Assembly: GCF_014696675.1 (NCBI RefSeq)
Contig: NZ_JACJQN010000002.1
Location: 372,001 to 436,000 of the forward strand
Reading direction: 5' to 3'
Origin: Phormidium tenue FACHB-1052
GTDB taxonomy: Bacteria; Cyanobacteriota; Cyanobacteriia; Phormidesmidales; Phormidesmidaceae
Length of the DNA: 64,000 nucleotides
Of the stretch, positions 54,215 to 59,029 are shown piece by piece (position 1 is the first letter of the stretch; each line of letters opens with the position of its first letter). The translations under genes and the position numbers were made by a program. Under the pieces are notes generated by a model. It ran no database searches, was not told the DNA's origin, and was given only the letters and a program-made list of their open reading frames with translations.

Positions 54215-55375
54215 CTACCCCATTGGCCCGGCCAAAATCACCTTAGCCAAGGCGTTGATTACGGACTCGGGCGGCTCTTGCTTGAGGTCGCTGTACCACT
54301 GCTCGGTGGCCTCGGGCACGTAGCCGTAGATCAGGCTGGTGCGCTTGCGGGCTTTGAGCACTAGCTCGGCAGTGCGGTCTTTGCGGGCCGCCTCATAGCG
54401 CTTGAGAGCGTCGGCTACGCCAATGTTAGTGGTATGCAGGTAGCGGGTCAGTACCTCGGCATCTTCGATCGCCTGACAGCCGCCCTGACCCAGAGTGGGA
54501 GTAGTGGCGTGGGCTGAGTCGCCCAGTAGGGCAATGCGACCTTTCACCAGGTGCTCCAGCGGGTCGATGTCGCCAATCTCCAGGCGATTGGTCTGCTCTG
54601 GGTCAAGGGCTTGAATGAGTTTTTGCACCGGCTCGGGCCAGCCCTGAAAGATTTTGGCCAATTCTTCCTGGCGGTAGGTGGGCTCGACGTGGGTGCCTTC
54701 AACCATCGGTGCCCCAAAGAAAAAGTAAAAGCGATCGCCTCCCACCGGCATCATTGAGGCGCGCTTGCTATCGCCCACGTAGAGCACCCACAGATTGGGG
54801 TCGCACAGTTCAGGGTCAGCCTTGACCAGGCCATTCCAGTTGACGTAGCGGGCGTAGCGGCGCTCGACCTGCCCCACCACACAGGCGCGCACTGCGGAAT
54901 GAATGCCGTCAGCTCCCACTACCAAGTCACCGCTGATTCGCTCCCCGTTTTCAAAGATGGCAGTGGCGCTGTGCTCGTCTTGCTCCACGCCGACGCAGTT
55001 CATGCCTAGGTGCACATCCTCAGGCCCAAAAGCTTCGAACAGCATGGTTTGCAGGTCAGTGCGGGCTACGGGGTAGGGGCGCTGGCCCACTTGCTCAAAC
55101 AGGGGGCGCAGGTCGACGTAGCTGAGAGATTCATCGGTGTGGCTGCGATACTCCATGGCGTTCATCTCACCGCCAATGGCAGCCAGCTTTTCCCCCAGTC
55201 CCAGATGGTTGAGCACCTTAACTCCGTTCGACCAGAGCGAGATACCGGCACCAGCGGGCCGCAGCTCTTGAGCGCGATCGTAGATCTCGACTTGGTACCC
55301 CGCCTGCCGCATGGCAATGCCCGTGGTTAATCCGCCAATTCCAGCTCCAATAATCACTACCTTCAGGTTGTACAT
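54215..55375 (-). CDS. hpxO: FAD-dependent urate hydroxylase, HpxO-like
   Basis: HpxO converts urate to 5-hydroxyisourate with NADH and O2, an alternative to uricase. The 386-aa protein has the FAD loop G10-A-G-I-G-G15 and the group A monooxygenase motif ALLGDSAHATTPTLGQGGC. Much stronger similarity to Klebsiella HpxO is seen in ARYVNWNGLV, KR205ASMMPVGGDRFYFFF, VQKLIQALDPEQTNRLEI and the C-terminal LVLKARKR and ILAGPMG. The Arg205/Tyr217 pair fits the reported urate-site Arg204/Tyr216. No other ureide genes are adjacent, so purine use is inferred. Zeaxanthin-epoxidase-like or other hydroxylase roles are less likely. Confidence 0.8.
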   Translation of the reverse strand: MYNLKVVIIGAGIGGLTTGIAMRQAGYQVEIYDRAQELRPAGAGISLWSNGVKVLNHLGLGEKLAAIGGEMNAMEYRSHTDESLSYVDLRPLFEQVGQRPYPVARTDLQTMLFEAFGPEDVHLGMNCVGVEQDEHSATAIFENGERISGDLVVGADGIHSAVRACVVGQVERRYARYVNWNGLVKADPELCDPNLWVLYVGDSKRASMMPVGGDRFYFFFGAPMVEGTHVEPTYRQEELAKIFQGWPEPVQKLIQALDPEQTNRLEIGDIDPLEHLVKGRIALLGDSAHATTPTLGQGGCQAIEDAEVLTRYLHTTNIGVADALKRYEAARKDRTAELVLKARKRTSLIYGYVPEATEQWYSDLKQEPPESVINALAKVILAGPMG

Positions 55376-55703
55376 GGCTCGCTCCTAACTGCTGTGATGG
55401 GTAGGGCATGGTTGTGACGAGGGCGTATGGCCAAAGCTATTGAACGCTGGTTCAAAGCCTAAGGTGTCGTCATCAATAGTTTCACAACGAAGAAAATTTT
55501 GTATACAGCGCACAGTTGTCGGCGGCTAGGTTAGCAGTGGCACCTAGAGGCGTCAACCGTAAAAGTTGGCTAGGCAGTATTTGTACTCAATCTTTAAGAA
55601 CCTGCCAAATTGTTCACCAATTTGTTATCGCCGCTACATCAGAAATAGCTGGATTTTTTTCGGCCACAGAGAAAAGGTAACTGTCCAGATTTGGAATACC
55701 ATC
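55376..55703. other. intergenic region between hpxO and the small peptide gene
   Basis: This 328-bp AT-rich stretch separates divergent genes and should contain both promoters. An open frame runs from 55566 into the peptide gene, but its upstream part lacks a ribosome-binding site. No operator was recognised. Confidence 0.45.
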
Positions 55704-55913
55704 ATGTGGCATCGTTTCTCTGTAATGTTGGCTGCTGTTTTAGTCGGTGGCGTGGGTGGTCTGAGCTATGTGGCCCTGTCTCCGCAGACGGCTGCTGCCC
55801 CGTTATCTCCTGGCGTTGAAGACGTTGAGGTTAACGCGGAGACAGTTGCTAGCAGCTATGTTCAAGGTAAAAAACGCTCGGGCAGCGGGCGGCGTGGCAT
55901 GCGCGGCAGCTAG
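55704..55913 (+). CDS. small secreted PatX-like peptide precursor
   Basis: The 69-aa product (ATG 55704, GGAAT about 9 bases upstream) has a signal peptide (MWHRFSVMLAAVLVGGVGGL ... SPQTAAA), a short acidic middle and a basic Gly/Arg tail GKKRSGSGRRGMRGS. PatX proteins of filamentous cyanobacteria share this plan, with an N-terminal signal and a C-terminal RGSGR peptide that controls HetR. Here the motif reads R-SGSGR-R, one residue from RGSGR. I infer a PatX-like signalling peptide, but a generic small secreted basic protein cannot be excluded. Its stop overlaps the convergent TPR pseudokinase by 4 bp. Confidence 0.6.
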   Translation: MWHRFSVMLAAVLVGGVGGLSYVALSPQTAAAPLSPGVEDVEVNAETVASSYVQGKKRSGSGRRGMRGS

Positions 55914-57886
55914 AGTTCCGTTGTTTGGGCGGCCCGGAGCTTTTCTAGCTGATATTTGGCGTCGTCAAAGCAGCCTAGGCGGCTGACATCAAGGCAGGCG
56001 CTGGCCACGGTTTCTAAATCGGCGATCGCGCTCTCAATATCCCCCAGCTCCGCATGGAGCAACCCCCGGTCGTAATAGGCAAAGGGATGGTTGGGATTGA
56101 GCTCTATCGTTTGATTGAAGTCGGCCATGGCCCCGGCGTAGTCGCCCAGATCTTGGCGGGTCAAGCCGCGATTGTAGTAAGGCTCCGGGCTGCCCGCATT
56201 GATCTGAATGGCGATCGTAAAGTCTTGGATCGCCCCCTGAAAATCGTTGAGTCGTCGCTTGACTAGCCCTCGATTTTCGTAGGCCAGGCTGTTGTTGGGG
56301 CGCAGGTTGACGGCCTCGGTGCAGTCGTTGAGGGCGGCGGCGTGATCTGCCAAGTTCGAGCGCGATAGGCAGCGATTCAGGTAGGCGTCGGCCTTGCTTT
56401 CCGGATCCTCGGCCAGGTTGATGGCGGCGGTGTAGTCTTGCAGGGCTCCCTCTTCATCCCCTAGCTCGGCTCGGGCGTTGCCCCGGTTGATGTGGGCGTC
56501 AACGTAGGTGGTTTCGCGCTCTAGGGCATCGCTGTAGTCAGCGATCGCCCCCTGCAAATCGCCCAGGCGAAAGCGCAAGTTGCCCCGCTGAAAGTACCAG
56601 GTGGCCATGCTGGGGTCGTTCTGAATGGCGTTGGTCAGGTCTTGCAGAGCCTCCTCCGACTGCCCATTTTCCCACAGCAGGGTCGAGCGCTGGGCCAGGG
56701 CCTTGCCGTGGTCAGGCTTTAAATCTATAGCCTGGTTGAGGTAGTTGAGCGAGTCATTCTTTTGCCCCACCTGCCTAGCGGCTTCGGCCTGCTGAAGTAG
56801 GCCATTGACTGTCATGCGTTGGGGAACGCGCAGCAAAAACACTCCCGCCACCGTCAGCAGGGCGATCGCGACCCCTGCACCCAACCAAACCTTAGAGCGA
56901 CGGTTGAGACGGGCGGCACGGGGGGCCGTGGAAGGCGTGGATGACAACTGTTCTGGCTCCATATCACCGTTCTCCGGGGGCGGGGGGCTGGCGGGCTGGG
57001 CTGAAGCCGCCGGGGCAGGGGGGCCAACCCGCTCAGCCAGGGCCAGCAAAATGTCTTTGGCCTGGTGATACTGCGCCTCGGGCTGGGGCGACACCATTTT
57101 GATCAAAATGTCTTTGAGAGGGTTACCCAGGGTTGAGCATTCGTCGAGTTGGAGCTTAATCTGAGCCAAAAAATCGTCCTGGTTTAGGCGGGGAATTGCC
57201 TCATTTGACAGGCCTGTAGCCATCTGCATCGCAATCATGCCCAGGGCAAAGTGGTCAGCGGCAAAGCGGGTGTACTGGCGGTGCTTGACTTGGGGCAGGT
57301 AGGCCGACTCGGCGGTAGGAGTTGTGGGGTTGCCGTTAGTCTCTAAGCTCGGCTCCGGGGTGCCCGTGTCTTGAATCAGGCCGAAATCTACCAGCACCAG
57401 GTGGCCGCGATCGCGGTGCCGAATCAGATTGTTGGGGTGCAGGTTTTGGTGGGCAATGCCGTGGCGCTGAATCAGGTCTAAAATGCCCAGGCTTTCGACT
57501 AAAAAGCGCAGTACCTCGGCCTCCTGTCTGGGTTTGCCCTCAGCCAGTTCAGCCATGAGGGAATGGCCAGCAACGTAGTCGCGCACCCAGTAAAAGTCTT
57601 GCCCCTCCTGCACTGTAGAGAGGTTTTTGGCGATCGCCTCTTGGTCGCCCATGCGCTTGAGCAGGTTAACCCGCTTGGCCAGCAAATCGTTGAGAAATTT
57701 TAGGGTAATGGTGTTGTGGGAGGGCAGCTGCAAATGCTTAACAATGCACTTGGCCTTTGCCGGATCGCCATGATCGGTCATCAGGTAGGTCTTGGTGTAG
57801 GCCTTAGTACTGACAACTCGAATGAACTGAAACCGTCCATCGATCAGTCTTTTCACAACCATTAGTTTTTGCTGAGGTAAATGCAC
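55910..57886 (-). CDS. TPR protein with pseudokinase-like Ser/Thr kinase domain
   Basis: The 658-aa protein starts with a kinase fold (~10-280). The ATP Lys is probably K50 (CIVK) and D167-F-G is kept, but the catalytic loop reads H146-QN-LHPNN, with Asn148 instead of the catalytic Asp, and the Gly-rich loop is lost (RVVSTKAYTKTYL). It is therefore probably a pseudokinase. A Pro-rich linker leads to a membrane helix (~332-352; WLGAGVAIALLTVAGVFLL). About seven TPR units follow (~355-640; e.g. ALAQRSTLLWENGQSEEALQ). ATG 57862 is an alternative start. It probably acts as a membrane-anchored scaffold. It converges with the PatX-like gene. Confidence 0.85.
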   Translation of the reverse strand: MHLPQQKLMVVKRLIDGRFQFIRVVSTKAYTKTYLMTDHGDPAKAKCIVKHLQLPSHNTITLKFLNDLLAKRVNLLKRMGDQEAIAKNLSTVQEGQDFYWVRDYVAGHSLMAELAEGKPRQEAEVLRFLVESLGILDLIQRHGIAHQNLHPNNLIRHRDRGHLVLVDFGLIQDTGTPEPSLETNGNPTTPTAESAYLPQVKHRQYTRFAADHFALGMIAMQMATGLSNEAIPRLNQDDFLAQIKLQLDECSTLGNPLKDILIKMVSPQPEAQYHQAKDILLALAERVGPPAPAASAQPASPPPPENGDMEPEQLSSTPSTAPRAARLNRRSKVWLGAGVAIALLTVAGVFLLRVPQRMTVNGLLQQAEAARQVGQKNDSLNYLNQAIDLKPDHGKALAQRSTLLWENGQSEEALQDLTNAIQNDPSMATWYFQRGNLRFRLGDLQGAIADYSDALERETTYVDAHINRGNARAELGDEEGALQDYTAAINLAEDPESKADAYLNRCLSRSNLADHAAALNDCTEAVNLRPNNSLAYENRGLVKRRLNDFQGAIQDFTIAIQINAGSPEPYYNRGLTRQDLGDYAGAMADFNQTIELNPNHPFAYYDRGLLHAELGDIESAIADLETVASACLDVSRLGCFDDAKYQLEKLRAAQTTEL

Positions 57887-58549: not shown

Positions 58550-58639
58550 GGGGTTTAACCCCCTATAGCTACCTTGGAGACATCAAGGCAGCGGCTCACG
58601 CAGAATTGGGCAAGCTGCTCCATCGTTGTTGACCCAAGG

Positions 58640-59029
58640 ATGACCGTCATGAGCCTGCGATCGCAACTTGCCCTAGCCACCCTCAGCATTTTGGCCACCG
58701 CCGCCCTGGCCGCCACCGCCGCAGACGCCCGCCCTGGTCAAGGGCATCGCCCCCAGTCCAGCGCCCCCGCAGTGCAAGAAGTCGTGCCCCAGGTCGAAGC
58801 TCCCACCGCTACGGTAGAGACCCCGGAGGTCACGCTCGAAACCACTGACGCCGTTGTCGTCGAGGTTCCCGACACAGAGACTTCTGTAGTCGGCGAATCC
58901 GCAGCGGAGTACGAAAACCTACCTCCTGGTCTGCAACGCCGAGTCGATAGCGATCGCGGTCTGCCCCCCGGCCTACAGCGCCAGGCGGAGAGCGAGCGTG
59001 GCTTACCTTCTGGTCTCCGCAACCGGTAA
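58640..59029 (+). CDS. secreted protein with LPPGL repeats
   Basis: The 129-aa product starts MTVMSLRSQLALATLSILAT and has a signal peptide ending near AADA. The middle is rich in Val, Thr, Pro and Glu (~35-90). The C-terminus has three repeats of about 14 residues: LPPGLQRRVDSDRG, LPPGLQRQAESERG and LPSGLRNR. Such LPPGL motifs occur in exported bacterial proteins of unknown role. A long hairpin with a T-run follows the stop. Start ATG 58640 gives the signal its proper position. Confidence 0.75.
   Translation: MTVMSLRSQLALATLSILATAALAATAADARPGQGHRPQSSAPAVQEVVPQVEAPTATVETPEVTLETTDAVVVEVPDTETSVVGESAAEYENLPPGLQRRVDSDRGLPPGLQRQAESERGLPSGLRNR

Follow-up and report, generated by a model that had tools for sequence, protein, structure and literature searches.

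A diverged second PatX lineage with an altered RGSGR signature beside a TPR pseudokinase gene in Nodosilinea

HetR regulates multicellularity in cyanobacteria, and PatX is an ancient peptide that inhibits it; the role of the two in filaments without heterocysts calls for explanation, and the series of related genes described here bears on it. The locus in question lies in a stretch of 64,000 nucleotides (the window) from a genome of the non-heterocystous genus Nodosilinea, to which most of the named relatives with homologues also belong. A sequence-only reading had proposed that a small open reading frame in the window encodes a secreted, HetR-linked PatX peptide with an SGSGR variant of RGSGR, possibly of different specificity. 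Is this frame a gene, does it descend from patX, and what might the change in its motif mean? The features on which the answer turns are as follows.

55704-55913, + strand: PatX2-lineage peptide precursor of 69 residues (open reading frame, homologues, purifying selection, non-circular profile match)
55704-55799, + strand: signal-peptide-like N terminus (basic n-region, hydrophobic core, c-region of small residues ending TAAA)
55875-55895, + strand: R58-S-G-S-G-R-R64, the altered RGSGR signature (genus alignment and PatX2 of other families)
55648-55653, + strand: GCTGGA, degenerate DIF1 position at -56 from the ATG (matched in the alignment with the TCCGGA of PatX2 promoters from within the family)
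55910-57886, - strand: convergent TPR pseudokinase gene with a kinase-like domain, a predicted transmembrane segment and a TPR domain of about 300 residues (Pfam, lost HRD Asp, hydropathy)
54215-55375, - strand: divergent FAD monooxygenase-like gene, PF01494 (Pfam; kept beside the peptide gene in the genus)
55500-55514, no strand assigned: TGTATACAGCGCACA, a conserved intergenic element (alignment of intergenic regions of the genus)

The frame runs from the ATG at 55704 to the TAG at 55911-55913 and translates to MWHRFSVMLAAVLVGGVGGLSYVALSPQTAAAPLSPGVEDVEVNAETVASSYVQGKKRSGSGRRGMRGS. The translation bears out the layout that had been read from it, with an N terminus that is basic and then hydrophobic, an acidic middle (VEDVEVNAE) and a basic C terminus, KKRSGSGRRGMRGS. 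The N-terminal pattern is kept in relatives, the cleavage site being placed by eye from the sequence, and no Pfam or NCBIfam domain matched the protein. The frame is open from 55566, and an upstream start was ruled out by a 1-bp deletion or a stop in that region in relatives. A profile search found homologues in 19 of the 26 genomes of the genus, and synteny added three more diverged ones in the same place (G005, G018, and G024), which brings the total to 22. Pairwise dN/dS for the gene ranged from 0.11 to 0.45 over ten pairs and, as a ratio of means, was 0.39 for the whole gene and 0.21 for its C-terminal part, values that point to purifying selection, strongest at the C terminus. Four residues of the motif (G60, G62, R63, and R64) are invariant in a 15-row alignment of the genus, and their codons vary at third positions only. 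Given that homologues are found in most genomes of the genus and that synonymous changes exceed non-synonymous ones, we regard the frame as a genuine gene and not as a chance open reading frame.

The variant motif singled out by the earlier reading is kept across the genus, though the full conserved pattern is R-x-G-S-G-R-R, with S, P or F at x, and not SGSGR alone. The window peptide itself has RSGSGRR and lacks the RG(S/T)GR pentapeptide of PatX, which is absent from 17 of the 22 members; the other five carry RGTGRR. An Arg stands directly before x in every RxGSGRR form, and most of the RGTGRR sequences, when aligned, are one codon short. A tree built from the C-terminal part of the neighboring kinase has R-x-G-[S/A/G]-G-[R/H]-R on every deep Nodosilinea branch, with RGTGRR nested on two (G025/G006 and G003/G011); RGTGRR is also the form in G016, where the contig breaks off at the peptide.

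Downstream, the peptide gene meets the pseudokinase gene tail to tail, and their stop codons share the four bases CTAG, an overlap that recurs in relatives and in other families. The label of TPR pseudokinase was rightly given, since the HRD Asp is not conserved (the sequence reads HQNLHPNN) and is absent from all seven aligned relatives. Hydropathy places a hydrophobic segment near residue 333, followed by some 300 residues of acidic TPR; with a cytoplasmic kinase-like domain, the TPR part would come to lie outside the cytoplasm. The two genes are kept together in 21 Nodosilinea genomes and are both absent from G002, G014, and G021, a count that leaves out G016, in which the kinase is out of reach, and G013. 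The idea that the TPR domain is more acidic in kinases paired with the peptide was rejected, charge showing no difference between the paired and unpaired groups.

Several other families have a peptide gene of this kind with canonical RG(S/T)GRR, and in three of them it is convergent with an orthologous TPR pseudokinase gene, mostly with the same four-base stop overlap. We name this lineage PatX2. Its kinase-linked canonical members include VYRGSGRREILAF in G083, G059, and G115 (VYRGSGRREIL), SYRGSGRREIVAF in G225 (SYRGSGRREIV), and SYRGSGRRAVLAL in G305 (SYRGSGRRAVL); in G084, VHRGSGRRQIL lies about 200 nt from the pseudokinase gene. Both G083 and G225 additionally carry a hetR-linked PatX. 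A profile built from the kinase-linked PatX and the window peptide retrieved further PatX genes away from hetR, which adjoin another common neighbor, with an RPRGGG...YPLRAL-like sequence, in further genera of the window's family as well as in a single genus of family f24. These read YRGTGRRQI, DRGTGRREI, and YRGTGRRE(V/L), and the first Arg is lost in TGGTGRREI and LGGTGRREI. It is likewise lost in the kinase-linked PatX2 of G029 (IGGTGRRQI), and GGTGRR is also the form in G033 and G046, again from other genera of the family.

Since this first profile included the window peptide, a control profile was made from 19 PatX2 proteins from outside Nodosilinea and run against the window peptide together with 349 other small open reading frames of the window and 300 shuffled sequences as decoys. 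The window peptide ranked above all of these decoys at 12.2 bits (E = 0.006), which supports the PatX homology proposed for it earlier. Other Nodosilinea members reached up to 28 bits, and one (L017) fell among the shuffles. The match is modest for a single sequence and consistent across the set. Judged by these comparisons, the window peptide is homologous to PatX proteins from outside its own genus and family.

The promoters add to this picture. Outside Nodosilinea, 18 PatX2 genes have an upstream region that can be read, and every one has a DIF1-type TCC[G/T]GA at -53 to -66 from the ATG, though these promoters are not independent of each other, and TCCTGA lies at -58 to -64 in eight of eight hetR-linked patX genes. 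Across families, hetR-linked patX uses TCCTGA and PatX2 mostly TCCGGA, at an equal distance of about 60 nt upstream. In Anabaena, DIF1 elements drive patX through HetZ (PMC7377430). TCC[GT]GA is absent from -85 to -40 in all eight Nodosilinea PatX2 genes checked; in the window the alignment puts GCTGGA at the corresponding position, with a spacing to a GA-rich, -10-like block similar to that of TCCGGA in relatives. Expression of the window peptide gene probably no longer belongs to the HetZ/DIF1 circuit.

Synteny, profile and colinear promoter together show the window gene, at the level of sequence comparison, to descend from PatX2, a second PatX lineage that coexists with the hetR-linked one. 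What holds of the proposed PatX membership is therefore the descent, seen in the profile match and in a locus where other families have YRGSGRRE(I/V); by the strict pentapeptide and the DIF1 hexamer the gene falls outside PatX, and for that reason we file it as a diverged second lineage. By the same comparisons, both the pentapeptide (RGSGRR to RxGSGRR) and the hexamer (TCCGGA to GCTGGA) changed in the Nodosilinea stem. Because the deep branches have the R-x-G form and the outgroup families are canonical, the first Arg was shifted out of its place by the base of Nodosilinea at the latest, with canonical RGTGRR apparently regained twice; this history is one of parsimony over 36 tips, and other histories are possible.

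The proposed link to HetR calls for a similar division. A search for hetR succeeded, with two copies in the source genome and two or three in each of the 26 genomes of the genus, as expected for PatX; the window gene itself is not hetR-linked. The main PatX of the source genome lies beside and upstream of hetR on contig C9 (L003:3985-4302) and has three tandem RGSGR copies. As this canonical gene precedes hetR there, the window gene represents a further PatX-like gene, distinct from it, and most of the Nodosilinea genomes studied have two PatX-type genes. In Nodosilinea as in further genera of the family, hetR-linked PatX (L003:3985-4302, L072-L096) has two to five tandem RG(S/T)GR copies, resembling a multi-copy peptide precursor. 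A DNA-pattern search for RGSGR across the genus was swamped by chance matches.

In the PatS6-HetR structure, both peptide Arg residues make key contacts to E253, D270, and D278 (PMC4649674). These residues, and R223 among the PatS6 contacts, are kept in all Nodosilinea HetR copies read. HetR2 has E254V in 19 of 19 copies read (L002, L097-L100, L239-L253), and HetR3 (L254-L258) combines E254T and D256G/E in the peptide pocket, its E253, D270, and D278 staying in place; three HetR genes occur in G014. It is possible that HetR2 and HetR3 are paralogues that differ in peptide preference. HetR2 as a dedicated receptor of PatX2 is not supported, since it is also present in genomes from which PatX2 is absent.

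Set beside known systems, the window peptide resembles PatX of Nostoc/Anabaena PCC 7120 (Asl2332, an RGTGR form) in being a short secreted precursor with a Sec-type signal, in its basic G(S/T)GR peptide and in its hetR-bearing genome; its signal-like hydrophobic N terminus, seen in sequence and alignment, is as expected of PatX. It differs from Asl2332 in having RxGSGRR for RG(S/T)GR and GCTGGA for the DIF1 hexamer and in adjoining a TPR pseudokinase gene. With the hetR-linked PatX of its own genome it shares the signal-like N terminus, the HetR-peptide motif and a promoter element about 60 nt upstream, whereas that protein has its tandem RGSGR copies without a second Arg, a TCCTGA element and a position upstream of hetR. 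Closest in arrangement are the pseudokinase-linked PatX2 genes of other families (L196, L215, and L217), which match it in position, orientation, four-base stop sharing, a length of about 70 residues and GSGRR, but keep R1 (YRGSGRREIL, YRGSGRREIV, and YRGSGRRAVL) and have an exact TCCGGA at -60 to -62. RGSGR is also present in PatS and HetN, the HetR inhibitors of heterocyst-forming species; PatS is a very short peptide that ends in RGSGR, and HetN a larger, reductase-like protein with an internal RGSGR. The window frame, at 69 residues, signal-bearing and free of Pfam and NCBIfam domains, fits neither. The precursors of PatS and HetN are considered cytoplasmic in both synthesis and cleavage, which sets them apart from exported PatX (PMC12756182).

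In Anabaena, HetR is restrained by PatX (PMC7761841), and in Nostoc, PatX is exported and cut by PatP, and HRGTGR binds HetR (PMC12756182). The reading that we prefer, with about an even chance of being right, is that the window peptide is a secreted precursor of PatX2 origin that fine-tunes a HetR-family protein with altered affinity. Sec would export the precursor, and a peptidase of the PatP type would trim it once it is outside the cytoplasm; the resulting (K)RSGSGR(R) would re-enter cells of the filament and bind the Hood domain of a HetR-family protein, either more weakly than RGSGR or with a preference for another paralogue. In such a heterocyst-free filament, the tandem-repeat PatX beside hetR would provide the main inhibition and the window peptide the fine-tuning. 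In favor of this reading are the hetR copies in every genome of the genus and the intact PatS6 contacts of HetR; moreover, with R-x-G-S-G-R-R basal in the genus and RGTGRR, a form known to bind HetR, nested on two branches, the two forms seem interchangeable. A HetR paralogue with altered affinity is the most likely receptor, and a receptor other than HetR is possible; an altered cell-to-cell message, as the sequence-only reading had suggested, is plausible. Three points weigh against the HetR model. As both Arg residues are key in the PatS6-HetR complex, loss of the first should cost much affinity; its loss in G029, G033, and G046 suggests that selection is perhaps not on HetR binding; and in Leptolyngbya BL0902, a close relative, the effects of patX on gene expression are largely independent of hetR (PMC11298460).

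It is unlikely, if less so than what follows, that the gene is an ordinary, fully active PatX whose R-S-G-S-G-R matches RGSGR approximately in HetR binding, with R58 replacing R1 and the change being neutral. The Arg before x in every RxGSGRR form, the recurrence of RGTGRR on two branches, mostly without one codon, and the unchanged HetR pocket would fit. The PatS6 site is, however, fitted to R-G-S-G-R (PMC4649674), and the hetR-linked PatX copies of the genus keep an exact RG(S/T)GR. That PatX2 became redundant once the hetR-linked PatX had gained its tandem RGSGR, and now drifts as a relic without peptide function, we think improbable: the genus-wide change of both DIF1 hexamer and R1, the disappearance of the gene from three genomes and the tandem copies throughout the genus are set against a dN/dS that is far under 1 and reaches its minimum at the C terminus, a G-x-G-R-R that is nearly invariant while the linker diverges, and retention in 22 of 26 genomes.

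We give a similarly low probability to the idea that PatX2 in the window's family has been freed from HetR and signals to another receptor, for example the neighboring membrane pseudokinase, whose TPR domain should face the side of the membrane on which the peptide is set free. The convergent junction conserved across families, the joint presence in 21 genomes and joint absence in three, the predicted transmembrane segment followed by an acidic TPR domain and the hetR-independent effects in BL0902 all argue for it; yet several genera of the family have the kinase with PatX2 elsewhere or with no PatX2 beside it, TPR charge is alike in both groups, the joint absence may be one event, and convergent genes need not cooperate. 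The narrower version, in which the extracytoplasmic TPR domain of the convergent pseudokinase senses PatX2 as its own receptor in place of HetR, is more doubtful still; if true, it would mean a second line of peptide signaling in filamentous cyanobacteria, split off from the HetR circuit.

Returning to the lineage as a whole, PatX2 offers a natural series within one gene lineage, from canonical RGSGRR with DIF1 in other families, through R-x-GSGRR or GGTGRR, some with DIF1 and some lacking it, in the window's family, to nested RGTGRR, and this would allow the roles of the first Arg and of DIF1 to be tested on naturally occurring variants. Two PatX lineages can also be told apart: the hetR-linked one, with tandem RGSGR in the window's family, and another that has a promoter and a locus of its own. 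Looking for RGSGR next to hetR would lump these lineages together or overlook one. In one published survey, patX is missing from some genomes that have patP and hetR, such as Leptolyngbya cf. ectocarpi (PMC12756182).

Two minor observations concern the surroundings of the gene. A TGTATACAGTGCACA-like element (55500-55514), some 200 nt upstream of the peptide gene, occurs in most of the genus and is missing in a few members; it may belong to the promoter of the divergent monooxygenase gene. The gene at 58574-59029 (+ strand) encodes a protein that looks secreted, has LPPGLQR repeats in its C-terminal part and matches the CigR family model weakly, with a score under the cut-off.
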